NCBI RefSeq assembly: GCF_004025965.2
Contig: NZ_SAYU02000017.1
Location: 1-62,294, forward strand
Reading direction: 5' to 3'
From: Phycicoccus flavus
Lineage (GTDB): Bacteria; Actinomycetota; Actinomycetes; Actinomycetales; Dermatophilaceae
Length of the DNA stretch: 62,294 nucleotides
Positions 4,110 through 18,738 of this stretch are shown piece by piece (within the stretch, counting starts at the first letter, position 1; each line of letters begins with the position of its first letter). The position numbers and the translations under genes were made by a program. A model generated the notes under the pieces. The model did no database searches. It worked only from the letters and a program-made list of their open reading frames with translations, and was not told where the DNA came from.

Positions 4110-4414
4110 TCCTGCTCCGCCACGAGCTCGGCGAGGCGCTGCGCGAGGCGCGCCGCGCCCAGGGCCGCACCCTGCGCGACGTCGCCGGGTCCGCCGCCGT
4201 CTCACTCGGGTACCTGAGCGAGGTCGAGCGCGGCACCAAGGAGGCGTCCTCGGAGCTGCTGGCCTCGATCTGCGACGGCCTCGGGCTCACCCTCTCGGAG
4301 CTGCTCGGCGTCGTCCGGGACCGCGTCGAGCACGTCGAGACCCTCTCGGCCCCGGTGACCCTGCCGGTCGCGCCGGCCCTCGACCCCGACCAGGTCTCCG
4401 CCTCCGCGGCCTGA
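4106..4414 (+). CDS. clgR: XRE-family transcriptional regulator ClgR
   Basis: Small DNA-binding protein of 102 residues. The helix-turn-helix covers about residues 10-70; the segment [20 protein letters not shown] and the following [14 protein letters not shown] are close to remembered ClgR sequences of Mycobacterium and Corynebacterium. ClgR activates clp protease genes, and the mycobacterial homologue has also been reported to bind RecA-independent DNA-damage promoters. The GTG start overlaps the cinA stop, with GGAGG five bases upstream. Last gene of the rimO operon, convergent with nei. Confidence 0.88.
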
Positions 4415-5330: not shown

Positions 5331-8300
5331 TCACCGGCGCATCCGCAGGCCGCGCGGCGTGAGGTGGAAGCCCGCGGACTCCAGCGCCGAGATGACCGGG
5401 TGGTCCGACCCCAGCAGCCGCCCGCCGTCGGCCTTCTCGACGGTGATCCGGCCCAGGTGGCCCCGCCGGACCGCGTCGGCCAGGGCCCCGGCCGCGGCGG
5501 CGAGGAGGTCGGGGTCCTCGGTGTAGGTGAGCAGGGTCTTGCCGCCGCGCTCGACGTAGAGGGCGAGGACGCCGTCGACGAGGACGACGACGGAGCCGGC
5601 CTTGCGACCGGGCTGGTGCCGCCGGCGCTTGTCGCCGTCGCCGCCGTCCTCGGCGGGGTCGACGGCCCGCTCGGGCCAGGGCAGCGCGCCCCCGTACGGG
5701 TTGGCCGGGTCACTGGCGGCGAGGACGACGGGCACGGGGTCGGGACGGTCCCGCTCGCGCACCGCGGAACCGCCGGCCCGGAGCCGGTCGATGGCCCCGC
5801 CGGTCCCGAACTGCGAGGCGCCGAGGCCCTCGACGAAGTAGCCGCGCCGCACCCGTCCGCTCTCCTCGGCCTTGCCGAGCACGCGGTAGACGGCGGCGAA
5901 GCCGCCGGTGATGTCCTCGGCCGCGACGGCGCCCCGGGTGACGATGCCGTGCCGGTCGAGCAGGAGCTCGGCGGTGGCGAGGGCGCGCAGGGTGGGGTCG
6001 TCCTCGGCGGGGGGGAGGAGCGACCACCGGCCGGTCGCCCGGGCCGGACCCGAGCGCGCGGGCAGGGCCGGGCGGCTGGGCGCCGAGCCCAGCGCTCCGA
6101 GCGGGCCGCGCCGCGACCCGTACCGGGTCCGCCGCGGGCCGGGGGTCGTCCGCTTGTGGGTCGTGCGGCCCCCGGCGAGCAGCGCCCGGACCGGGGCGAA
6201 GGTGTCGCCGGTGACGCGCCCGGCCCAGACGAGGTCCCAGAGGGTGCCGGTCAGCGTCTCGTCGTCGGTGCTGCCGACCTGGTCCGAGAGGGAGCGGAAG
6301 AAGTGCGCCCCGCCCCCGGCCAGCGCGTCCAGCACGGCCAGGCCCTGCTCGGACGGCACCCGCTCGGGGTCCGGCCCGGGCAGGGTGAGGTGCGCGGAGT
6401 CGGCGAGGTGCAGCGACACCCAGCCGTCGTCGCCCGGGAGCGACCCGTGCCCGCACCACAGCACCTCCCCGGAGGCCATGAGCTCGTCGAGCATCCCGGG
6501 TGCGTAGTCGGCGACCCGCGCCGGCAGCACGAGGGACTCCCAGGCGCTCGCGGGCAGCACGGCCCCGCTCAGCTGCTCGACGGCCCGGACGACGCCGTCG
6601 CGCCCCCGCAGCCGGCCGCCGACGCCCTGCCACTCCTGGAGGAACCGCGCGAGCTCGACCGGCGTGACCGGCTCGACCTCGGCCCGCAGCGCCGCGAGCG
6701 AGCGCCGGCGCAGCATCCGCAGGACCTCGGCGTCGCAGTACTCGGTGCCCCCGCCGCCGGTGGGCAGGAACTCGCCCTCGACGACGCGGCCGGACGAGGC
6801 GAGCCGGGCCAGCGCCCCCGTCGCGACGGCGACGCCGATGCCGTAGGCGCGGGCGACCTGCGCGGCCTGGAACGGCGCGTGGGTGCGGGCGAAACGGGCG
6901 ACGAGGTCGCCGAGCGGGTCGGTGACCGGCTCGAGGAAGGTCTGCGGGACACCGGGGGGCAGCGAGGCGCCGAGGGCGTCGCGCAGCCGGGAGGCGTCCT
7001 CGATGGCCGACCAGCGCTCCTCGCCGGCGACCCGGACGGGGATGACCTGGCGGGCGGACTCGAGGCCGGCCAGCCAGCCCTCGACGTCGTCGCCGCTCAC
7101 GCCCTCGCGGCAGCGCTGGAGGACGGCGTCGACCGACAACGGCCCGAGGACGCGCAGCAGGTCGAGGGCGTCGTCGGCGTCGCGGGCGGCGCGCTCGGGG
7201 GTGAGGCGCTGCAGCTCGGTCTCGGTGCGGGCGACCTGCTCGGCGTCGAGGAGGTCGCGCAGGGCCAGCCCCTCGGACCCGCCGAGCAGCTCGGCGAGCA
7301 GGGAGGGGTCCAGGGCCAGGGCGGCGGCGCGCTTCTCGGCGAGCGGGCTGTCGCCCTCGTAGAGGAACTGGGCGACGTAGCCGAAGAGCAGCGACTTCGC
7401 GAACGGCGACGGCGTGGTGCTCTCGACGTCGACGACGGTGACCCTGCGGCCGGCGACGTCCTGCATGAGCGCGACGAGGCCGGGCACGTCGAAGACGTCC
7501 TGCACGCACTCGCGGACGGCCTCGAGCACGATGGGGAAGGTGGGGTAGCGGCTCGCGACCTCGAGCAGCTGGGAGGCGCGCTGGCGCTGCTGCCACAGCG
7601 GCTGCCGCCGGTCCGGGCGGCGGCGCGGCAGGAGCAGCGCCCGGGCGGCGCACTCGCGGAAGCGGGAGGCGAAGAGCGCCGAGCCGCCGATCTCCTCGGT
7701 GACCAGGCCGCGGACGTCGTCGGGGTCGAGGACGACGAGGTCGAGCAGCTCGCGGCCGACGCCCCGGCGGTCCAGGCCCTCGACGTCGTTCCACTCCAGG
7801 TCGGGCAGCCGCAGGACGATGCCGTCGTCGCCGTGCATGGCCTGGACGTCGACGCCGAAGCGGTCGCGCATCCGGGCGCTCACGGCCAGCGCCCAGGGGG
7901 CGTGGACCTGGGCGCCGAAGGGGGAGTGGACCGCCACCCGCCAGTCGCCGAGCTCGTCGCGGAACCGCTCGACGACGACGGTGCGGTCGTCCGGGACGTG
8001 CCCGGTGGCCTCGCGCTGCTCGCGCAGGTAGGTGAGGAGGTTGTCGGCGGCCCAGGTGTCGAGCCCGGCGGCCATGACCCGCTCCCGCGCGGACTCGGGC
8101 GAGAGGGCGTCGACCTCGCGGACGAATGCGCCGACCGCCTTGCCCAGCTCGGCCGGACGGCCGAGGCTGTCACCCTTCCAGAACGGCAGCCGGCCGGGCA
8201 GGCCCGGCGCCGGGGTGACGAGGACGCGGTCGTGGGTGATGTCCTCGATGCGCCAGGTGGAGGTGCCCAGGGTGAAGAGGTCGCCGACCCGGGACTCGTA

Positions 8301-10037
8301 GACCATCTCCTCGTCGAGCTCGCCGACCCGCCGGCCCGGACCCTCGCCCGTCGCGAGGAAGACGGCGTAGAGGCCACGGTCGGGGATGGTCCCACCGGAG
8401 GTGACGGCCAGGCGCTGGGCGCCCCGGCGGCCGGTGAGGGTGTCGGCCAGCCGGTCCCAGGTGATCCGGGCCCGTAACTCGGCGAAGTCCTCGCTCGGGT
8501 ACTTGCCGGCGAGCATGTCGAGCACCGACTCCAGGACCGAGCGGGTGAGCGTCGCGTAGGGCGCCGACCGCCGGGCCAGGGCGAGGACGTCCTCGACGGT
8601 CCACTCGTCGAGCGCGCACATGGCGACGACCTGCTGGGCCAGGACGTCCAGCGGGTTCTGCGGGACGTGCAGCGCCTCGATGGAGCCGGACAGCATCCGC
8701 TCGACGACGACGGCGGTCTGGACGAGGTCGCCGCGGAACTTCGGGAACAGCACGCCGCGCGACACGGCGCCGACCTGGTGGCCGGCGCGCCCGACCCGCT
8801 GGAGCCCGGAGGCCACCGACGGCGGCGACTCGACCTGGACGACGAGGTCGACCGCGCCCATGTCGATGCCGAGCTCGAGGCTCGAGGTGGCGACGACGGC
8901 GGGCAGCCGGCCGGACTTCAGCTCCTCCTCGATCTGGGCGCGCTGCTCCTTGCTCACCGACCCGTGGTGGGCGCGGGCGATGACGGCCGCGGCGCCACCG
9001 CCCTGCCCGGACTGGGCCATGACCTGCGCCGGGGTGTTCCTCAGCACCGCCGGGCGCGCCTGGCCGTGCTCGGCCCCCACCGTCTCCGCCCCGGCGGCGA
9101 CCTCGACCCGCTCCTCCCAGATCTCGTTGAGCCGGGTGGTGAGTCGCTCGGCGAGGCGCCGGCTGTTGGAGAAGACGAGGGTCGAGGTGTGGTCGGCGAC
9201 GAGGCCGACGATGCGCTCCTCGACGTGCGGCCAGATCGAGGCGCGCTGCTCCTGCCCGGACGCGGCGCCGGCGAGGTCGCCGGTGGGCTGCCCGAGCTCG
9301 GACATGTCGGGGACCGGGACGACGACCTTGAGGTCCCACTCCTTGGTCGAGGGCGGCTGGACGACGTCGACCGGGCGCCCGCCCGCGAGGTACCGCGCGA
9401 CCTCCTCGACCGGGCGGACCGTGGCCGACAGCCCGATCCGCTGCGCCGGGCTGTCGAGCAGGCCGTCGAGCCGCTCCAGCGACAGGGCGAGGTGCGCCCC
9501 GCGCTTGGTGCCCGCGAGGGCGTGGACCTCGTCGAGGATGACGGTCTCGACACCGGTGAGCGCCTCGCGGGCGGCGCTGGTGAGGAGGAGGAAGAGCGAC
9601 TCGGGCGTCGTGATGAGCACGTCGCTGGGGGTGCGGGCGAAGGCGCGCCGCTCGTCGGCCGGGGTGTCGCCGGAGCGCACGGCGACGGTGATGTCGGGCT
9701 CGGGGAGGCCGAGCCGTGACGCCGCGTGCCGGATGCCGACGAGCGGGCTGCGCAGGTTGCGCTCGACGTCGACGGCCAGGGCCTTCATCGGCGAGACGTA
9801 GAGGACCCGGCACCGCTGCAGCCGCTCCTCGGGGACGGGCCGCGAGGCGAGCCGGTCCAGCGCCCAGAGGAACGCCGAGAGCGTCTTCCCCGACCCCGTG
9901 GGCGCGACGACGAGCGCGTGCCGGCCCCCGGAGACGGCCTCCCAGGCGCCGGCCTGCGCGGCCGTGGGCTCGCTGAAGCTGCCGCGGAACCAGGCGGCGG
10001 TGGCGGGGGAGAACCGGTCGAGGACGTCGTCGCTCAT
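5331..10037 (-). CDS. lhr: Large ATP-dependent DNA helicase Lhr
   Basis: Superfamily 2 helicase of 1568 residues, the long Lhr form. The N-terminal RecA-like domains show motif I (APTGSGKT, residues 45-52), motif II as DEVH (169-172), motif III (LSATVRP) and the motif VI region QRVGRAGHQVG. The Lhr core and a long C-terminal domain of unknown function follow, ending at the stop at 5331. Mycobacterial Lhr is a damage-inducible 3'-to-5' translocase. The ATG at 10037 lies 9 nt from a GAGGCT -10 that follows a CTGTCGGTG damage motif. Co-oriented with nei and divergent from the aldo/keto reductase. Confidence 0.96.
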   Translation of the reverse strand: MSDDVLDRFSPATAAWFRGSFSEPTAAQAGAWEAVSGGRHALVVAPTGSGKTLSAFLWALDRLASRPVPEERLQRCRVLYVSPMKALAVDVERNLRSPLVGIRHAASRLGLPEPDITVAVRSGDTPADERRAFARTPSDVLITTPESLFLLLTSAAREALTGVETVILDEVHALAGTKRGAHLALSLERLDGLLDSPAQRIGLSATVRPVEEVARYLAGGRPVDVVQPPSTKEWDLKVVVPVPDMSELGQPTGDLAGAASGQEQRASIWPHVEERIVGLVADHTSTLVFSNSRRLAERLTTRLNEIWEERVEVAAGAETVGAEHGQARPAVLRNTPAQVMAQSGQGGGAAAVIARAHHGSVSKEQRAQIEEELKSGRLPAVVATSSLELGIDMGAVDLVVQVESPPSVASGLQRVGRAGHQVGAVSRGVLFPKFRGDLVQTAVVVERMLSGSIEALHVPQNPLDVLAQQVVAMCALDEWTVEDVLALARRSAPYATLTRSVLESVLDMLAGKYPSEDFAELRARITWDRLADTLTGRRGAQRLAVTSGGTIPDRGLYAVFLATGEGPGRRVGELDEEMVYESRVGDLFTLGTSTWRIEDITHDRVLVTPAPGLPGRLPFWKGDSLGRPAELGKAVGAFVREVDALSPESARERVMAAGLDTWAADNLLTYLREQREATGHVPDDRTVVVERFRDELGDWRVAVHSPFGAQVHAPWALAVSARMRDRFGVDVQAMHGDDGIVLRLPDLEWNDVEGLDRRGVGRELLDLVVLDPDDVRGLVTEEIGGSALFASRFRECAARALLLPRRRPDRRQPLWQQRQRASQLLEVASRYPTFPIVLEAVRECVQDVFDVPGLVALMQDVAGRRVTVVDVESTTPSPFAKSLLFGYVAQFLYEGDSPLAEKRAAALALDPSLLAELLGGSEGLALRDLLDAEQVARTETELQRLTPERAARDADDALDLLRVLGPLSVDAVLQRCREGVSGDDVEGWLAGLESARQVIPVRVAGEERWSAIEDASRLRDALGASLPPGVPQTFLEPVTDPLGDLVARFARTHAPFQAAQVARAYGIGVAVATGALARLASSGRVVEGEFLPTGGGGTEYCDAEVLRMLRRRSLAALRAEVEPVTPVELARFLQEWQGVGGRLRGRDGVVRAVEQLSGAVLPASAWESLVLPARVADYAPGMLDELMASGEVLWCGHGSLPGDDGWVSLHLADSAHLTLPGPDPERVPSEQGLAVLDALAGGGAHFFRSLSDQVGSTDDETLTGTLWDLVWAGRVTGDTFAPVRALLAGGRTTHKRTTPGPRRTRYGSRRGPLGALGSAPSRPALPARSGPARATGRWSLLPPAEDDPTLRALATAELLLDRHGIVTRGAVAAEDITGGFAAVYRVLGKAEESGRVRRGYFVEGLGASQFGTGGAIDRLRAGGSAVRERDRPDPVPVVLAASDPANPYGGALPWPERAVDPAEDGGDGDKRRRHQPGRKAGSVVVLVDGVLALYVERGGKTLLTYTEDPDLLAAAAGALADAVRRGHLGRITVEKADGGRLLGSDHPVISALESAGFHLTPRGLRMRR

Positions 10038-10046
10038 GCTGGCGTC

Positions 10047-10069
10047 AGCCTCTCACCCGCCACCGACAG
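10047..10069 (-). promoter_or_regulatory. RecA-independent DNA-damage promoter motif upstream of lhr
   Basis: On the minus strand the sequence reads CTGTCGGTG (10069-10061), eight bases, then GAGGCT (10052-10047), nine bases before the lhr ATG. It matches the published actinobacterial motif tTGTCRgtg-N8-TAnnnT, except that the first -10 base is G and the first motif base is C. The identical 9-mer with N8 spacing sits upstream of recA in this window. Confidence 0.6.
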
Positions 10070-11174: not shown

Positions 11175-11197
11175 ACCCTAGGGCCTGCCACCGACAC
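11175..11197 (-). promoter_or_regulatory. Orphan damage-type promoter motif facing away from DUF3046
   Basis: On the minus strand: GTGTCGGTG (11197-11189), 8 nt, TAGGGT (11180-11175). This fits TGTCRgtg-N8-TAnnnT with a consensus -10, but no supported minus-strand gene follows; transcription would run antisense into the 3' end of the aldo/keto reductase gene. Chance cannot be excluded. Confidence 0.35.
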
Positions 11198-11232: not shown

Positions 11233-11457
11233 ATGCGGCACTCGCGCTTCTGGGAGCTCATGGCCGAGGAGTTCGGCGCGACGTACGCGCCGACCCTCGC
11301 CGGCAGCCATGTGCTCGGGGCGCTCGGCGACCGGACGGCCCAGGAGGCCCTCGACGACGGCGTCGCGCCGCGCGAGGTGTGGCTCGCCCTCTGCGACGAC
11401 CTCGACGTCCCGGAGTCGCGCCGGCACGGCCGGGAGGTGCCGCCACCGCGCGACTGA
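11233..11457 (+). CDS. DUF3046 family protein
   Basis: Small protein of 74 residues beginning MRHSRFWELMAEEFG, with LGALGDRTAQEALDDGV and VWLALCDDLDVPE. These are hallmarks of DUF3046, an actinobacterial family of unknown function normally found just upstream of recA. Here about 5.5 kb separates it from recA. The ATG lies seven bases after TAGGCT (11220-11225), so the mRNA is probably leaderless. Confidence 0.88.
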   Translation: MRHSRFWELMAEEFGATYAPTLAGSHVLGALGDRTAQEALDDGVAPREVWLALCDDLDVPESRRHGREVPPPRD

Positions 11458-11528
11458 CCTCGACGGGCCGCGGGGTCGCGGGGAACCCGGAGGTGGACCG
11501 TCGGCGGGCTCGGCTAGCCTCTCGCGAC

Positions 11529-12458
11529 GTGACGGACGAGGTGCTGCTGAGCGCGCGGGGGCTGACGAAGACGTTCGGCGACTTCGTCGCGGTCGACGGC
11601 ATCGACGTCGAGGTGCGCCGCGGCGAGGCCTTCGGGTTCCTCGGCCCGAACGGCGCGGGGAAGTCCTCGACGATGCGGATGGTCGGCTGCGTCTCGCCGG
11701 TCACCTCCGGCGAGCTGACGATCCTCGGTCTGGACCCCGCGGTCGACGGCCCGCGGATCCGGGCCCGGCTGGGGGTCTGCCCGCAGAAGGACATTCTCGA
11801 CGAGGACCTGTCGGTCGAGGAGAACCTCTGGGTCTACGGCCGTTTCTTCGGCCTCACCCGCGCCGAGGTCCGCCGCCGCGCCGAGGACCTGCTGGAGTTC
11901 GCCCAGCTCACCGAGCGCCGCGGCGACCGGGTCGAGCCGCTCTCCGGCGGGATGAAGCGGCGGCTCACCATCGCCCGCTCGCTGATGAACGACCCCGAGG
12001 TCCTGCTGCTCGACGAGCCCACCACCGGTCTGGACCCGCAGGCCCGGCACGTGCTGTGGGACCGGCTCTTCCGGCTCAAGCGCGAGGGCGTCACCCTCAT
12101 CATCACGACGCACTACATGGACGAGGCCGAGCAGCTGTGCGACCGGCTCGTCGTCATGGACCACGGACGGATCGTCGCCGAGGGCTCGCCGCGCGCCCTC
12201 ATCGAGACCCACTCCACCCGCGAGGTCGTCGAGCTGCGGTTCGCCGTCGACGAGCAGGAGCGGCACCTCGACGCGCTCGACGGCGTCGGCGAGCGGGTCG
12301 AGGTCCTGCCGGACCGCCTGCTCGTCTACGCCGACGACGGGGACGCCGCGCTCGCCGAGCTCGGCGGGCGTGGGGTGCACCCGCTGTCCTCGCTCGTGCG
12401 GCGCTCGACCCTCGAGGACGTCTTCCTCACCCTCACCGGCCGGACGCTGGTCGACTGA
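11529..12458 (+). CDS. ABC transporter ATP-binding protein (DrrA/NodI type)
   Basis: ATPase subunit of an ABC-2 exporter, 309 residues. Walker A is GPNGAGKS (residues 39-46); the signature LSGGMKRR, Walker [12 protein letters not shown] and the switch His in TTHYMDEAEQ are all present. A C-terminal extension of about 80 residues ends in [11 protein letters not shown], as in DrrA-like subunits. The GTG start is chosen because TAGCCT (11515-11520) ends eight bases upstream. The stop overlaps the ATG of the first permease by one base. Cargo unknown. Confidence 0.93.
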   Translation: MTDEVLLSARGLTKTFGDFVAVDGIDVEVRRGEAFGFLGPNGAGKSSTMRMVGCVSPVTSGELTILGLDPAVDGPRIRARLGVCPQKDILDEDLSVEENLWVYGRFFGLTRAEVRRRAEDLLEFAQLTERRGDRVEPLSGGMKRRLTIARSLMNDPEVLLLDEPTTGLDPQARHVLWDRLFRLKREGVTLIITTHYMDEAEQLCDRLVVMDHGRIVAEGSPRALIETHSTREVVELRFAVDEQERHLDALDGVGERVEVLPDRLLVYADDGDAALAELGGRGVHPLSSLVRRSTLEDVFLTLTGRTLVD

Positions 12459-13303
12459 TGGCGAGCGCCGACGCCCTCACCGCGACCACCCCCAGCGGCC
12501 GGCTGGGCCGCGGCCCGCGCCGCCCGACGAGCGCCACGGAGCGCATCGCGGCGGTCATGGGCCACCACCTGCTCGTCGCCCGGCGCACCTGGAAGGGCAC
12601 CGTCGTCGGCCGGTTCGCCTCGCCGCTGTTCTTCCTGCTCGCGATGGGCCTCGGCCTCGGGGCCCTCGTCGACGAGCGCACCGGGGGGATCGACGGCCTG
12701 CCCTACCTACGCTTCGTCGTCCCCGGCATCGTCGCGATGCAGGCGATGACGACGGCGTTCGGCGAGTCGACGTACGCCGTCATGGGCTACATCAAGTGGA
12801 ACCAGATGTACTCCGCGATGCTCGCCACCCCGCTGCGGTCCTCCGAGTTGCTCCTCGGCCACCTGGCCGTCGTCGCCCTCCAGCTGACCGTCAGCAGCGC
12901 CGCGTTCGTCCTCGTCGCGGCACCCTTCGGGGCCTTCGGCTCCTGGTGGGCGGTTCTCGCGGTACCGGTCGCCGTCCTCACCGGCCTCGCGTTCGCGGTC
13001 CCGACCTTCGCACTGTCGGCCACGGTCGACACCGACAACGTCTTCAGCATCCTCTTCCGCTTCGTCGTCACCCCGCTCATGCTCTTCTCCGGCACCTTCT
13101 TCCCCATCGAGCAGCTGCCCGGGTGGATGCAGCCGCTCGCCTGGGTCACCCCGCTCTGGCACGGGGTCGTGCTGAGCCGCGAGGCCTCCGAGGGCGTCGC
13201 CCCCGGCTGGTCCACGCTCGCGCATCTCGCGGTCCTGCTGCTCTACGTCGGCGTCGGCTGGGTGCTCGCCCGGTGGCGCTTCCGGGTGAGGCTGCTGCCG
13301 TGA
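12458..13303 (+). CDS. ABC-2 type transporter permease
   Basis: Membrane subunit of 281 residues with about six predicted helices and a polar N-terminal tail of about 35 residues. The central motif (LMLFSGTFFPIEQLPGWMQP) is typical of DrrB/NodJ-like permeases. It overlaps the ATPase gene as TGATG and the next permease as GTGA, so the three genes form a unit. With two distinct permease genes and one ATPase, the exporter is probably a permease heterodimer. Confidence 0.91.
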   Translation: MASADALTATTPSGRLGRGPRRPTSATERIAAVMGHHLLVARRTWKGTVVGRFASPLFFLLAMGLGLGALVDERTGGIDGLPYLRFVVPGIVAMQAMTTAFGESTYAVMGYIKWNQMYSAMLATPLRSSELLLGHLAVVALQLTVSSAAFVLVAAPFGAFGSWWAVLAVPVAVLTGLAFAVPTFALSATVDTDNVFSILFRFVVTPLMLFSGTFFPIEQLPGWMQPLAWVTPLWHGVVLSREASEGVAPGWSTLAHLAVLLLYVGVGWVLARWRFRVRLLP

Positions 13304-14085
13304 CCGTCACCGCAACCCCCTCGCTCGGGCTCGCCCGCTTCGTCCTGCTGCGCAACGTCACGGCGTTCCGGCGGGCGTGGATCCTCCTGCTCAGCGGCCT
13401 CGTCGAGCCGGTGTTCTACCTGTTCTCGATCGGCGTGGGCCTCGGGGCGCTCATCCGCACGGTCACCACCGACAGCGGCGCCGTGGTCCCGTACGCGGAG
13501 TTCGTGGCGCCGGCCCTCCTCGCGGTGTCGGCGATGAACGGGGCGGTCGCGGACTCGGTCTACAACTTCTACTTCAAGCTCAAGCACGCCAAGGTCTACG
13601 ACGCCATGCTCGCGACGCCGGTCTCGCCCCGCGACGTCGCGGTGGGGGAGGTGTCGTGGTCGCTGCTGCGCGGGGCGCTCTACTCCTCGATGTTCCTCGC
13701 CGTCGCGTGGGTGGCCGGGCTCGTGCACTCGTGGTGGTCCCTGCTCGCCGTGCCGGCCGCGACCCTCGTCGGGCTGGCCTTCGGGGCGGTGGGGATGTAC
13801 GCCGCGACGTTCATGCGCACGTGGCAGCACGTCGACTACGTCAACCTCGTCGTCCAGCCACTGTTCCTCTTCTCGGCGACCTTCTTCCCGCTGTCCACCT
13901 ACCCCGATGCGCTGCAGTGGCTGGTCCGGGCCACCCCGCTCTACCACGGGGTCGCCCTGGAGCGGGCCCTCGTCCTCGGCGAGGTCTCCTGGGGGCTGCT
14001 CTGGCACGCGGGCTACCTCGTCGTGCTCGGCGTCGTCGGGGTCCTCGGGACCTCGCGCCGCATCGGCGCCCTGCTGCTCACCTGA
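13300..14085 (+). CDS. ABC-2 type transporter permease, second subunit
   Basis: Membrane protein of 261 residues, paralogous to the preceding permease. The motif FLFSATFFPLSTYPDALQWL occupies the same place as LFSGTFFPIEQLPGWMQPL in its partner, and YDAMLATPVSP parallels YSAMLATPLRS. The GTG start overlaps the preceding stop by four bases. Last gene of the exporter operon; no clear terminator hairpin follows in the 119-bp gap before the secreted protein. Confidence 0.9.
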   Translation: MTVTATPSLGLARFVLLRNVTAFRRAWILLLSGLVEPVFYLFSIGVGLGALIRTVTTDSGAVVPYAEFVAPALLAVSAMNGAVADSVYNFYFKLKHAKVYDAMLATPVSPRDVAVGEVSWSLLRGALYSSMFLAVAWVAGLVHSWWSLLAVPAATLVGLAFGAVGMYAATFMRTWQHVDYVNLVVQPLFLFSATFFPLSTYPDALQWLVRATPLYHGVALERALVLGEVSWGLLWHAGYLVVLGVVGVLGTSRRIGALLLT

Positions 14086-14204
14086 GGCCGACCGGAGCGG
14101 CCGACCCTCGACAGATCCTGAGAGCCGCCTGAATTCATCTGTTGCAGAACGACTCGCGCGGAGTGATGGTTGACCGTCCTGTCCAGTACCCCCCGGGAGC
14201 ATCC

Positions 14205-16268
14205 ATGAGAGCCATGCGCTACCTCGCCGCCGTCTGCGTCGGCCTCGCCGCCCTGGGGGTCGCGGGAGCCGGCGAGGCGGCGACCCCGACGCGGGGAACC
14301 GTCACCGACACCGCTCGCAGCGTGTCGTGGAGCGGGGGACCGTTCGTCACCGCCAACACCACCGGCACGGCGCTGGACCAGCCCGACTGCACCGTGCCGA
14401 CGTCGTGCGACGACTTCGCGCTGCACGTGGGCACCCCGGCCGGCTACGGCGACGCCCACGCCCTCACCATCACGGTGCAGTGGCCGCTCGCCGCCGCCGA
14501 CTTCGACCTCTACGTCCTGGACGCCGCGGGCTCCGTCGTCGGCTCGTCCGCCTCCAGCGCCGACCCCGAGACCGTCGTCCTGCCGCCCACCACCGGCGAC
14601 TACACGGTGCGGGTCGTGCCCTTCGCCCCGGCCGGACAGTCCTACAGCGCGACGGCCACCCTCACCGACAAGCCCGCCGACCCGGCGCCCGGCACCGCGA
14701 CCCCGCCCGGCTTCGGGGTCTACCCGGCGCCCTCGTCGCTCGCCGACGCGAACAACGCCGGCGAGCCGTCCATCGGGACGAACTGGAAGAGCGGGGCGAG
14801 CCTCTACCAGGCCTACCTCTCGACGTACAAGGTCACCTTCGACGACAGCTCGAGCCCCGCGACCGCGACGTGGAAGGACGTGTCGGCGTCGCTGGCCAAC
14901 GGCTGCGCCGCCGGGAGCACGGTGAGCCTGGACCCGATCCTCTTCACCGACAGCCACACCGGCCGGACCTTCCAGTCCCAGCTCACCGGGGCGAACTCAC
15001 TGACCTGCTGGACCGACGACGACGGCACCTCGTGGAACCCCTCCACCGGAGGCGGCATCCCGAGCGGCGTCGACCACCAGACCATCGGCGGCGGGCCGTT
15101 CTCGGCCACCGGCGTCGGGCCGCTGCCCGGGACCACGTACCCGAACGCCGTGTACTACTGCTCGCAGGACATCGCGACCGCCTTCTGCGCCGTCTCCCGT
15201 GACGGCGGCACGACGTTCGGTGCCGGCGTCCCGACCTACAGCCTCCTCGACTGCGGCGGCCTGCACGGGCACGTCAAGGTCGCCCCCGACGGCACCGCGT
15301 ACCTGCCGAACAAGTCCTGCGGGAGCACCTCGGCCGTCGCCGTCTCCGGTGACAACGGCACCTCGTGGACCGTCCGATCCGTCCCCGGCAGCACGCCCGG
15401 CGACAGCGACCCGGCCGTCGGCATCGGCGCCAACGGCACGACGTACTTCGGCTACGTCGGCGCGGACGGCCGCCCGGCGGTCGCCACCAGCCGCGACAAG
15501 GGCGCGACCTGGACCGACCTGCAGCCCGTCGGCCTCGAGGCCGGCATCAAGAACGCCGTCTTCCCGGCCATGGTCGCGGGCGACGACGACCGCGCGGCCT
15601 TCGCCTTCCTCGGGACGCCCACCGGCGGCAACTATCAGGACCAGGCCACCTTCACCGGCATCTGGCACCTCTACGTCGCGACGACCTACGACGGCGGCAG
15701 GACCTGGCAGACCTCGGACGCGACGCCGAACGACCCCGTGCAGCGCGGCAGCATCTGCACCGGCGGCACCACCTGCGGCGACGACCGCAACCTGCTCGAC
15801 TTCATGGACGTGCAGGTCGACAAGGCCGGCCGCATCGAGGTCGGGTTCGCCGACGGGTGCATCGACGCCTGCGTCACCCACCCCGCGCAGAACGGCCGCG
15901 ACGCGTACGCGACGATCGCCCGGCAGAGCAGCGGAAAGACCCTCTTCGCGGCGTCCGACCCGCTGCCCGACCTCACCGTCTCCGGCTTCACCGTCGGCAA
16001 GAGCAAGTCGGGGCTCACGGCCTCGGTGACGGTGAAGAACGTCGGCGGCGCCAAGGCCACCGGCTTCGGCACCCAGGTCACCGACAACGGCAGCGTCGTC
16101 GGCACGACCGCGTCGACGACGCTGGCCCCCGGGGCGAGCACGACCTTGACGTACTCGTGGAAGGCGGCCAGGGGCAGCCACTCCGTGCTCGCCTCCGTCG
16201 ACCCGGCGAACACGGTGCGCGAGGCCGACGAGGGCGACAACAAGGCCGTGCGGACGGTCACGAAGTGA
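14205..16268 (+). CDS. Secreted Asp-box (sialidase/BNR-like) protein with CARDB domain
   Basis: Exported protein of 687 residues. The signal peptide starts MRAMRYLAAVCVGLAALGVA and is probably cleaved near GEAA. Next comes a beta domain (about residues 60-165) resembling a pre-peptidase C-terminal domain, then a beta-propeller-like region with Asp-box repeats (TDDDGTSW, SRDGGTTF, SGDNGTSW, SRDKGATW, TYDGGRTW). It ends with a CARDB-like domain (LPDLTVSGFTVGKSKSG onward). No sialidase active-site set was recognised, so the function may be binding rather than catalysis. ATG 14205 has GGGAG six bases upstream; an upstream in-frame ATG at 14142 would bury the signal peptide. Confidence 0.85.
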   Translation: MRAMRYLAAVCVGLAALGVAGAGEAATPTRGTVTDTARSVSWSGGPFVTANTTGTALDQPDCTVPTSCDDFALHVGTPAGYGDAHALTITVQWPLAAADFDLYVLDAAGSVVGSSASSADPETVVLPPTTGDYTVRVVPFAPAGQSYSATATLTDKPADPAPGTATPPGFGVYPAPSSLADANNAGEPSIGTNWKSGASLYQAYLSTYKVTFDDSSSPATATWKDVSASLANGCAAGSTVSLDPILFTDSHTGRTFQSQLTGANSLTCWTDDDGTSWNPSTGGGIPSGVDHQTIGGGPFSATGVGPLPGTTYPNAVYYCSQDIATAFCAVSRDGGTTFGAGVPTYSLLDCGGLHGHVKVAPDGTAYLPNKSCGSTSAVAVSGDNGTSWTVRSVPGSTPGDSDPAVGIGANGTTYFGYVGADGRPAVATSRDKGATWTDLQPVGLEAGIKNAVFPAMVAGDDDRAAFAFLGTPTGGNYQDQATFTGIWHLYVATTYDGGRTWQTSDATPNDPVQRGSICTGGTTCGDDRNLLDFMDVQVDKAGRIEVGFADGCIDACVTHPAQNGRDAYATIARQSSGKTLFAASDPLPDLTVSGFTVGKSKSGLTASVTVKNVGGAKATGFGTQVTDNGSVVGTTASTTLAPGASTTLTYSWKAARGSHSVLASVDPANTVREADEGDNKAVRTVTK

Positions 16269-16693
16269 CGCGGCTGCCCCTCACGGCAGCCGTCCTCGCC
16301 GTCGGCCTCCTCGCTTCCGGCTGCTCCGAGGGGATCGACAGCTCCGCCGACCGCACCGTGTGCGTCGGGGACGCCACGGCGTTGTCGAAGACGCCCGACG
16401 GGTTCCCGGCCGACTTCCCGTTCCCGCCGGGCACGGTCGTCTACCACGGCGAGGACCGCGGCGCCGACGGTCTCGTCATCACCGGGGTCACGGCCACGCC
16501 ATTCCAGGACGTGCTCGCGGCGCTCAACGGCCCGGTCCAGGACGCCGGGTTCACGGTGACCTCGGGCGAGACCGAGGAACACGACGCCGAGGCGAACTGG
16601 GAGAAGGGCGACCAGCGGGGCCGATGGGCGATCCGGGAGTCGGCCGACTGCCCCGGCGAGACGGTGGTCCAGGTCCTCGCGTCGTCGGGCTGA
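16265..16693 (+). CDS. Putative lipoprotein of unknown function
   Basis: 142 residues with a lipoprotein signal peptide: a short charged start, a hydrophobic core and the lipobox LLASGC. The mature part includes FPADFPFPPGTVVYHGE and repeated acidic residues; I do not recognise a domain. The GTG start overlaps the stop of the secreted Asp-box gene as GTGA, so the two are probably made together and may act together at the cell surface (inference). Confidence 0.75.
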   Translation: MTRLPLTAAVLAVGLLASGCSEGIDSSADRTVCVGDATALSKTPDGFPADFPFPPGTVVYHGEDRGADGLVITGVTATPFQDVLAALNGPVQDAGFTVTSGETEEHDAEANWEKGDQRGRWAIRESADCPGETVVQVLASSG

Positions 16694-16765
16694 GCCCTCG
16701 CGGTCGCCGGGGTGGTGCGTGACCTCCGGTCCGCCTCGGCGTGTCGCGGCGCGCCGTCCCGGGGT

Positions 16766-16787
16766 CGAACACGTGTTCGTCTACGCT
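16766..16787 (+). promoter_or_regulatory. LexA (SOS) box and -10 element of recA
   Basis: CGAACACGTGTTCG at 16766-16779 is a perfect 14-nt palindrome matching the actinobacterial SOS consensus CGAAC-N4-GTTCG. A -10 candidate TACGCT (16782-16787) follows after two bases, so bound LexA would cover the promoter. No good -35 is seen at the standard distance. This promoter would give a leader of about 160 nt before the first recA ATG. Confidence 0.88.
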
Positions 16788-16827
16788 CGTCCACAGGTGG
16801 TGGTCCCGGCGGCGCTCGTCCACAGGT
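16785..16827 (+). repeat. 14-bp direct repeat with DnaA-box-like 9-mers
   Basis: GCTCGTCCACAGGT occurs at 16785-16798 and again at 16814-16827, a 29-bp period. Each copy contains TCGTCCACA, one mismatch from the high-GC actinobacterial DnaA box TTGTCCACA. The first copy overlaps the SOS promoter -10. DnaA binding is an inference. Confidence 0.5.
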
Positions 16828-16847
16828 CCCACGGCGACCCGTGACGG

Positions 16848-16870
16848 CTGTCGGTGCCTCCACCTAGCGT
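16848..16870 (+). promoter_or_regulatory. Second, RecA/LexA-independent damage promoter of recA
   Basis: CTGTCGGTG (16848-16856), eight bases, then TAGCGT (16865-16870). This fits the RecA-NDp motif tTGTCRgtg-N8-TAnnnT described for mycobacterial damage genes, missing only the first T. In mycobacteria such promoters are activated by PafBC, with ClgR/ClpR also proposed. It would give a leader of about 80 nt. Confidence 0.72.
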
Positions 16871-16955
16871 CTGACCAGACCTCGCGACGAGGCCGACGGC
16901 GAGAGCTGGTCGACGGTGGACGCGATCGACGACGACACGAAGGACTAGGTGTGAC

Positions 16956-18053
16956 ATGGCTGGACCCAACGGCGCTCGCGGTGCCGTCCTCAACCCGCCC
17001 AGTGTGAAGGGCGCCGGCATGGGCGACGAGAAGAACAAGGCCATCGCCTCGGTGATGGCGCAGATCGAGAAGACGCACGGCAAGGGTGCGGTCATGCGCC
17101 TCGGCGACGACGTCCGTCCGCCGATCGCCGTCATCCCCACGGGCTCGATCTCCCTGGACGTCGCGCTCGGCATCGGGGGGCTGCCCCGTGGCCGCGTCGT
17201 CGAGATCTACGGCCCGGAGTCCTCCGGAAAGACGACGGTGGCGCTGCACGCCGTCGCGAACGCCCAGAAGGGCGGCGGCATCGCGGCGTTCATCGACGCC
17301 GAGCATGCCCTCGACCCCGAGTACGCGAAGAAGCTCGGCGTCGACATCGACGCCCTCCTGGTGTCCCAGCCGGACACGGGGGAGCAGGCCCTCGAGATCG
17401 CCGACATGCTCATCCGCTCCGGCGCGCTCGACATCATCGTCATCGACTCCGTCGCGGCCCTCGTGCCGCGCGCCGAGATCGAGGGCGAGATGGGCGACAG
17501 CCACGTCGGTCTCCAGGCCCGCCTGATGTCGCAGGCCCTGCGGAAGATCACCGGCGCCCTCAACAGCACCGGCACCACGGCGATCTTCATCAACCAGCTG
17601 CGCGAGAAGATCGGCGTGATGTTCGGCTCGCCCGAGACCACGACGGGCGGCAAGGCGCTGAAGTTCTACGCCTCGGTCCGGCTCGACGTGCGCCGCATCG
17701 AGACCCTCAAGGACGGCAGCGACCCGGTCGGCAACCGCACCCGGGTCAAGGTCGTGAAGAACAAGGTGTCGCCGCCGTTCAAGCAGGCCGAGTTCGACAT
17801 CCTCTACGGGCAGGGCATCTCCCGCGAGGGCGGCCTCATCGACATGGGCGTCGACCATGGCTTCGTCCGCAAGGCCGGTGCCTGGTACACCTACGAGGGC
17901 GACCAGCTCGGCCAGGGCAAGGAGAACGCCCGCACCTTCCTCAAGGACAACCCCGAGCTCGCCGACGAGATCGAGCGCAAGATCAAGGACAAGCTCGGGG
18001 TCGGCGCCAGGCCGGACCCGGAGCCGACGACGGACGTCCCCGTCGACTTCTGA
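16956..18053 (+). CDS. recA: Recombinase RecA
   Basis: DNA-dependent ATPase for homologous recombination and LexA autocleavage. It has 365 residues from ATG 16956; Walker A is GPESSGKT (residues 86-93), and MAW-like and loop-2 segments ([19 protein letters not shown]) are intact. There is no intein. The first 21 residues ([20 protein letters not shown] then G) precede [22 protein letters not shown], which is where most RecA proteins begin. An internal ATG at 17019 is therefore a serious alternative start. Neither has a strong ribosome-binding site. recX follows 40 bp downstream. Confidence 0.97.
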
Positions 18054-18093: not shown

Positions 18094-18738
18094 GTGGGCT
18101 TCGCTGACGGCTCGGCTCCGCCGCCCGAGTGGGCGGCCGAGCCGGCCGGCGACGGCTCCGGTCGGCGCGGGCGGCGGAGTGGTCGAGGTGTGGGAACGCG
18201 CCGGGCCGCCCCGCGGCCGGACCCGGAGGCCGACCCGCGCACCCGCGGCGAGGAGCCGGACCCGCACGACTGGGCCCGGCAGATCGTCCTGCGGCAGCTG
18301 ACCGCGGGGCCCCGCAGCCGGTCCCAGCTGGCGCAGGCGCTGCGCCGCAAGGACTGCCCCGGGGAGGTCGCGGACGCTGTCCTGGACCGGATGGAGGAGG
18401 TCGGCCTCGTCGACGACGGCGCCTACGCCGGCATGCTCGTGCGATCGCAGCAGGCCGGGCGCGGGCTCGCCCGGCGGGCGCTGCGCCAGGAGCTGCGCAA
18501 GAAGGGTGTCGACGACGACACCGCGGCCGCGGCCCTGGCCGAGGTCGACCCCCACGACGAGGAGGAGCGGGCTCGACAGCTCGTCGCGAAGAAGCTGCGG
18601 ACGATGCACGGCCTCGAGCCCCACGTCCAGACCCGCCGGCTCGCCGGCATGCTCGCCCGCAAGGGCTACGACGGTGAGGTCGCGATGCGCGTGGTCCGCG
18701 AGGCCGTCCGCGACGCCCCCGAGCACCAGCGCGACTGA
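18094..18738 (+). CDS. recX: Regulatory protein RecX
   Basis: Inhibitor or modulator of RecA filaments. 214 residues from GTG 18094: a charged, disordered N-terminal stretch of about 55 residues, then the three-helix repeats typical of RecX (ARQIVLRQLTAGPRSRSQLA, LVDDGAYAGMLVRS, LRQELRKKGVDDDTAAAAL, RLAGMLARKGYDGEVAMRVV). A second in-frame GTG at 18190, after CGAGGT, would give a 182-residue protein closer to mycobacterial RecX; the start is uncertain. Its position directly behind recA supports the call. Convergent with the YccF gene, 27 bp away. Confidence 0.92.
   Translation: MGFADGSAPPPEWAAEPAGDGSGRRGRRSGRGVGTRRAAPRPDPEADPRTRGEEPDPHDWARQIVLRQLTAGPRSRSQLAQALRRKDCPGEVADAVLDRMEEVGLVDDGAYAGMLVRSQQAGRGLARRALRQELRKKGVDDDTAAAALAEVDPHDEEERARQLVAKKLRTMHGLEPHVQTRRLAGMLARKGYDGEVAMRVVREAVRDAPEHQRD

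Follow-up and report, generated by a model that had tools for sequence, protein, structure and literature searches.

DnaA-type boxes at a conserved distance from the PafBC promoter of recA in Phycicoccus flavus and other actinobacteria

In mycobacteria, recA is served by two promoters, a LexA-dependent P2 and a PafBC-dependent P1 (PMC5656591). The RecA-independent (RecA-NDp) promoters are not restricted to mycobacteria but occur in further Actinobacteria as well, and both types of control act on recA, uvrA and uvrC (PMC8223512). Here, we analyse the recA upstream region of Phycicoccus flavus in a stretch of 62,294 nucleotides (contig NZ_SAYU02000017.1, assembly GCF_004025965.2), which is called the window below. 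Its two-promoter layout is already known from mycobacteria, and the recA gene of P. flavus is another instance of it. The new part is the conserved DnaA-type boxes located at a fixed distance from the PafBC promoter, which hint that replication control and the damage response are directly linked.

With the mycobacterial recA, this locus shares the LexA box upstream, the recA-proximal PafBC motif and the presence of both PafB and PafC in the genome. Unlike it, the P. flavus locus has two DnaA-type boxes between the promoters, while a search of the 300 bp preceding recA in the two named Mycobacterium loci gave none. The promoters of uvrB, recN and dinJ in Escherichia coli, which are co-repressed by DnaA and LexA, share with our locus one box near a start site; however, no PafBC system is named in the relevant passages of that source (PMC6015884), and box D2 described here lies upstream of a PafBC promoter at a fixed distance which is common to genes without a nearby LexA box. 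In a further known system, DnaA serves as a transcriptional reporter of replication or DNA stress that works in parallel to the SOS response; the passages on it mention neither a PafBC partner nor a fixed spacing. The RecA-NDp promoters of Streptomyces, represented by SCO6735, also have a PafBC-type core promoter outside mycobacteria, but neither DnaA nor TCCACA occurs in the main text of the SCO6735 paper (PMC5087735), its figures being outside the search. DnaA is also absent from the main text of the paper on PafBC and single-stranded DNA (ssDNA), and a literature search at the level of titles and abstract openings gave no report of DnaA-type boxes at PafBC promoters.

A preliminary description of this DNA proposed that recA has two stacked damage promoters, a LexA box and a RecA-independent motif. 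A LexA-type P2 upstream and a PafBC-type P1 close to recA are still the best reading of the gap before this gene: the mycobacterial layout is matched, and PafB, PafC and LexA are all encoded. Nevertheless, the proposal as a whole was partly supported, and it was incomplete, as it missed the two DnaA-type boxes.

DnaA-type boxes upstream of PafBC motifs

Between the LexA box and the PafBC motif of recA there is a 15-bp direct repeat, CGCTCGTCCACAGGT, each copy of which contains TCGTCCACA. These DnaA-type boxes, D1 and D2 (Table 1), have the same orientation and precede the P1 motif by ~59 and ~30 bp, respectively, D1 being placed 29 bp (~2.8 helical turns) beyond D2. In 20 genus representatives from 30 loci of the order, the DNA upstream of the PafBC motif was scanned for every hexamer at fixed offsets. 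The top upstream hexamer was TCCACA near -30 (16 of the 20 genera), the LexA half-site TCGAAC near -84 came behind it (11 genera), and TCCACA near -60 came next (10 genera).

Table 1. Features of the recA region of P. flavus (positions in the window)
Feature	Position	Strand	Basis or remark
LexA (SOS) box CGAACACGTGTTCG, operator of promoter P2	16766..16779	+	sequence read directly; same-genus alignment
Putative -10 element of P2, TACGCT	16782..16787	+	predicted start ~16794; TANNNT conservation in genus
DnaA-type box D1, TCGTCCACA	16787..16795	+	centre ~-86 from predicted P1 start; overlaps predicted P2 start (16794)
DnaA-type box D2, TCGTCCACA	16816..16824	+	centre ~-57 from predicted P1 start
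PafBC / RecA-NDp promoter P1, TGTCGGTG-N8-TAGCGT	16849..16870	+	pattern search, 30 relatives; predicted start ~16877
recA	16956..18053	+	TIGR02012, 568 bits; ATG at 16956
recX, 3' neighbour of recA	18094..18738	+	Pfam RecX domains

Two TCCACA hexamers followed by the PafBC motif with loose gaps were matched in 38 of 297 genomes of the order, and the reversed control gave 0. Distances were taken from 29 of the 30 loci: from box to box they are 27-32 bp in all 29 (24-38 allowed), and from D2 to the motif 28-32 bp in 28 loci and 42 bp in one (21-46 allowed). In the survey of the class, which comprised 246 genomes, TCCACA could lie 18-48 bp ahead of the PafBC motif (31 distances). This resulted in 111 matches, spread over 87 genomes and 35 of 104 genera, the reversed control again giving 0. 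The matches concentrate at 28-32 bp (93 of 111, with a peak of 43 at 30 bp), while 11 are found at 18-21 bp, 0 at 22-27 bp and 7 at 35-47 bp; the two populated windows are ~11 bp, or one helical turn, apart. The binomial value of 2e-55 for the class-wide spacing ignores relatedness and is not to be taken at face value. Weighting by phylogeny was limited to one vote per genus, which placed 30 of the 35 genera at 28-32 bp, 4 at 18-20 bp and 1 at 47 bp. The box distance is kept in 34 of the 35 genera with matches (30 at 28-32 bp, 5 at 18-21 bp, one in both).

TGTGGA, the intended orientation control, gave 30 matches in 25 of the 246 genomes (8 at 28-32 bp, 11 at 18-20 bp, 11 elsewhere), so that the boxes at PafBC motifs are biased in orientation, 111 forward versus 30 reverse. 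It was rejected as a neutral control since 18 of its 30 matches are full reverse DnaA boxes. Because TGTGGA proved to be non-neutral, the neutral hexamer ACACCT of the same composition was added; in the same genomes it had 6 matches, at 20, 21, 27, 38, 38 and 42 bp, two of which (20 and 21 bp) are within the minor distance window. A draw of 346 genomes across the phylum yielded 26 matches in 17 genomes, with 19 at 28-32 bp, 5 at 18-20 bp and one each at 35 and 44 bp.

The unit composed of a box and a PafBC motif is present at recA and at other genes. This split covers 49 loci (L185-L233; 48 distinct promoters) from the phylum and class surveys rather than all 111 class matches. Thirty-one of the promoters belong to recA, all of them with the box at 28-32 bp, and 17 belong to other genes, where 9 boxes are at 28-32 bp, 6 at 18-20 bp and 2 elsewhere (binomial 5e-4 for 28-32 bp, and 6e-7 for both windows, the second of which was picked post hoc). 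The non-recA genes include radA-like genes, uvrC, a histidine kinase gene and DUF222 genes; for nine of ten DUF222-like candidates, pooled from the order, phylum, class and TGTGGA searches, Pfam assigned DUF222 (eight above the curated cut-off), and for one it gave nothing. At box-PafBC loci such as the DUF222 genes, the 60-70 bp that precede the box showed no LexA box. That radA, uvrC and DUF222 genes all carry the unit suggests that it is an option available to PafBC promoters in general across many actinobacteria.

Two further arrangements were seen. In one relative (G047), an array of two boxes and a PafBC motif occurs six times, five of the six ending in an identical PafBC motif sequence; the array examined (L138, partly masked) precedes a short DUF222-like open reading frame, as judged by eye. 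These arrays suggest a multi-copy damage-inducible family. At C110:8660-8706 (minus strand) of the P. flavus genome, a PafBC motif has a perfect LexA box 11 bp 3' of its -10 element, before an operon that encodes a DnaE-type polymerase and DinB. This composite represents an AND-type layout with a geometry unlike that of recA and was detected in 9 of 59 genomes of the family (10 sites; reversed control 0). By eye, 6 of the 10 sites appear to precede the same DnaE/DinB operon and 4 appear to precede DUF222 genes.

The similarity of the boxes to DnaA sites is supported by several comparisons. The actinomycete DnaA box is given as TT(G/C)TCCACA in a review (PMC4285127). In 79 distinct promoters, the bases 5' of TCCACA are mostly T/C, T/C and G/A, a G directly follows it in 87%, and C occupies the second position in 47%. 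In the opposite orientation, 18 of the 30 TGTGGA matches read on as TGTGGAYAA, the complete reversed DnaA 9-mer; this tally was counted by hand and includes several near-identical copies, e.g., five matches in one genome. Moreover, the P. flavus contig with dnaA and rpmH signatures carries the exact recA box TCGTCCACA three times, with a G after two of the three copies, as well as TTGTCCACA three times. Nine TCCACA sites are grouped there at 1297-1710, just beyond the end of dnaA, the expected location of oriC.

A further view is given by named recA loci, for which 300 bp upstream were searched in 42 of 80 loci (L068, most loci from outside the actinobacteria and some near-duplicates among Streptomyces and Micromonospora were excluded; one locus titled as a Proteobacteria metagenome-assembled genome was included). 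T[TC][AG]TCCACA is present in 19 of the 42 regions in the forward and in 1 in the reverse orientation, against 5 and 8 for the reversed control. TCCACA itself, found in 24 of the 42, ranks top among the permutations of its letters (the next one, an overlapping hexamer, has 12; the median is 1). At five named loci, L026, L032, L050, L055 and L058 (Pseudonocardiaceae, Amycolatopsis, Actinocatenispora, Micromonospora and Actinoplanes), two DnaA-type boxes 18-19 bp apart precede recA without a match to the PafBC pattern; either the PafBC motif has diverged there, or the boxes act without it.

The two promoters, their regulators and the neighbourhood

The open reading frame upstream of recA ends at 16693, which leaves the 262-bp gap before the recA ATG that had been described earlier. 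The perfect 14-nt SOS palindrome and the TACGCT after it were likewise read as described. Genome-wide, the perfect LexA palindrome occurs in 5 places versus 1 for its reversed control, and recA, lexA and the dnaE/dinB operon are among the five. At recA, all 14 columns are invariant in 10 of the 11 same-genus sequences (L106, with a 1-nt indel, was excluded from the column alignment), while the DNA immediately 5' of the box is conserved in 0 of 26 columns. The predicted P2 is supported because all 11 of the 11 same-genus sequences keep a TANNNT hexamer 2 nt past the LexA box. Among the 30 relatives, 20 have the perfect 14-mer before recA, and its distance to the PafBC motif is 80-83 bp in 18 of them (92 and 128 bp in the others); in P. 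flavus it is 83 bp, start to start. LexA is encoded in the genome by a gene that lies 3' of a LexA box and has the LexA_DNA_bind and Peptidase_S24 domains.

The P1 element, when read with one more 5' base (CTGTCGGTG-N8-TAGCGT, 16848-16870), coincides in all its bases with the RecA-independent motif reported previously. In the genome (4.26 Mb, 153 contigs), the pattern TGTCRGTG-N8-TANNNT is matched 14 times and the reversed pattern 0 times, so these sites are far from chance. All 14 carry the -10 element TA[GC]NGT, which is narrower than the pattern demanded, and the genes after them include uvrA, uvrB, recA, a DnaQ/GIY-YIG nuclease gene, a DUF222 gene, DUF3072 and a mycothiol-S-transferase gene. 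The predicted start of P1 is placed at ~16877, in agreement with the earlier proposal, because an open frame begins 6-8 nt after the -10 element at 7 of the 14 sites. Before recA, the exact pattern is present in 28 of the 30 relatives, and in the remaining two it deviates at a single base. Generic scans for sigma-70 promoters and for terminators gave no match in 16650-17020.

PafB and PafC are encoded in tandem as two WYL genes on contig C74, followed by a TatA/TatC-like pair (by eye). NCBIfam gave no match for PafB or PafC, and therefore their identity rests on solved structures: the upstream protein matches the first half of PafBC 6sj9 (7e-57) and chain 9fnd_X (2e-59), and the downstream one matches the second half of 6sj9 (4e-50) and PafC 7p5x (5e-50). 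The elements, their spacing, the genes and this machinery are read in the sequence itself.

In Streptomyces, the PafBC motif is located upstream of recA in 8 of 8 named loci, a set which does not contain S. venezuelae; the motif of M. smegmatis is described as not conserved in S. venezuelae (PMC9380542).

The window contains a second perfect PafBC motif, TGTCGGTG-N8-TAGGGT, at 11175-11196 (minus strand), which is directed antisense into an aldo/keto reductase gene, at its 3' end, and is 36 bp from a divergent DUF3046 gene (Pfam 1e-29). DUF3046 usually adjoins recA; here it is separated from recA by ~5.5 kb (11233-16693), an interval that includes an ABC transporter ATPase gene and a CARDB-domain protein. 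A one-mismatch motif at 10047-10068 (minus strand) lies 9 nt before the start of the lhr helicase gene (5331-10037, minus strand), after which comes an Fpg/Nei-type glycosylase gene; possibly, it is a degenerate leaderless damage promoter.

The preliminary description also drew attention to a ClgR gene about 12 kb away. A helix-turn-helix gene does follow cinA ~12.5 kb upstream of recA (its helix-turn-helix near 4124-4300), and it is called ClgR-type by position only. A ClgR-type gene beside cinA is ordinary actinobacterial synteny. The ClgR motif is GTTCGC-N5-GCG, and it has no match in 16700-16960; ClgR as a regulator of recA was rejected on both grounds.

A three-input reading of the recA promoters

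We suppose that the recA upstream region is probably a three-input promoter, in which LexA controls P2, PafBC controls P1, and the DnaA boxes tune P1 and compete with P2. Most likely, DnaA is the protein that binds D1 and D2; its effect would be activation, and the boxes would serve as a switch between P2 and P1. From D2 (~-57), a class I activator position, DnaA would help or tune RNA polymerase at P1, where it would act from D1 as well. Boxes of the 18-21 bp class would centre near -46 from the predicted start; centres at ~-46, -57 and -86 are class-I-like activator positions. Since PafBC is described as touching promoter DNA only through PafB near -24, with PafC contacting sigma region 4 (PMC12340889), the DNA at D2 lies outside the reported PafBC contacts and may be free for DnaA. 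At D1 (~-86), bound DnaA would also cover the predicted P2 start, and as the box and the start overlap, DnaA occupancy would favour P1 over P2. Replication status may in this way bias which recA promoter fires, and the recA output would reflect cleavage of LexA together with the PafBC ligand (ssDNA) and the state of replication initiation.

In a wider form, this suggestion concerns the part of the PafBC regulon that comprises recA, radA, uvrC and DUF222/HNH genes, and we consider the chances for and against it to be equal. In many actinobacteria, these genes would have composite promoters where DnaA and PafBC act together, DnaA being docked ~19, 30 or 59 bp before the PafBC element, at positions separated by about one and about three turns of the helix. 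The LexA-independent damage response would then be gated by replication initiation, and the recA boxes would switch between the LexA and PafBC starts.

Alternatives and biological meaning

Several observations weigh against the involvement of DnaA as an activator at these promoters. In the genus, the spacer between D2 and the PafBC motif shows fair conservation of its own (12 of 22 columns), and D1 reads TCCCCA in 2 of the 11 same-genus genomes. The box is not obligatory, since TCCACA lies within 110 bp upstream of only 2 of the 14 PafBC motifs in the genome; the second boxed site, on C77, has a patatin-type frame 736 nt past its -10 element. The forward 9-mer T[TC][AG]TCCACA is absent from 23 of the 42 named 300-bp recA regions, including both Mycobacterium, both Gordonia and both Cellulomonas. 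The class matches come partly from kin genomes and are non-independent, 31 of the 111 originating from one genus and 17 from another. In addition, DnaA of E. coli is described as preferring closely spaced pairs of sites (PMC11317965), and many promoters of our surveys were tested for one box only. Finally, the precedents from E. coli are cases of repression (PMC6015884), and activation is suggested here by the position of the boxes only.

The last point leads to the main rival on the sign of regulation: DnaA may bind the boxes but act as a repressor, which damps P1 and blocks P2. We hold this to be unlikely, although it survives better than the other alternatives. DnaA and LexA do repress uvrB, recN and dinJ in E. 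coli (PMC6015884), and the overlap of D1 with the predicted P2 start fits such a role. However, D2 is located upstream of the P1 core promoter, where activators typically sit, and the box-PafBC unit is present at genes such as the DUF222 loci, which showed no LexA box in the 60-70 bp ahead of the unit's box.

It is somewhat less probable that YYRTCCACAG is read by another protein, for example, the response regulator MtrA or a WYL/XRE factor. The textbook DnaA box is indeed exceeded by the G that follows (87% of the 79 promoters) and by a C in the second position (47%), but TCGTCCACA stands three times, twice with the following G, in the cluster beside the organism's own dnaA, and 18 of the 30 opposite-orientation matches are the full 9-mer. 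As for MtrA, its site is given as GTCACAGCG (PMC4285127), which does not contain TCCACA.

Even fewer chances are left for the view that only the mycobacterial-type dual promoter (LexA at P2, PafBC at P1) is functional and the TCCACA boxes are an inherited "decoration". The P1/P2 architecture is published for mycobacteria (PMC5656591), the LexA and PafBC motifs are strongly conserved at recA, and 12 of the 14 PafBC sites of the genome do without a box. This improbable reading is opposed by the box distance, which is kept in 34 of 35 genera and at unrelated genes, while in the genus sample 0 of 26 columns are conserved in the flank just upstream of the LexA box and 7 of 18 in the D1-D2 spacer. 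Chance location of DnaA titration or reactivation sites (datA/DARS-like) in repair promoters is the least probable explanation: DARS1 does sit in the uvrB promoter of E. coli (PMC6015884) and DnaA boxes can bind DnaA independently of transcription, but the constant spacing from the PafBC motif and the orientation bias point to a promoter role.

We therefore return to the three-input promoter, with DnaA acting beside LexA and PafBC. If it is true, replication control and the ssDNA-sensing damage response would be directly wired via DnaA at the promoters of recA, radA and uvrC. The work on PafBC considered here was done in mycobacteria, and it may have missed the boxes because both named Mycobacterium recA loci are without the 9-mer; thus, the damage response of actinobacteria may have an input that has so far escaped notice.
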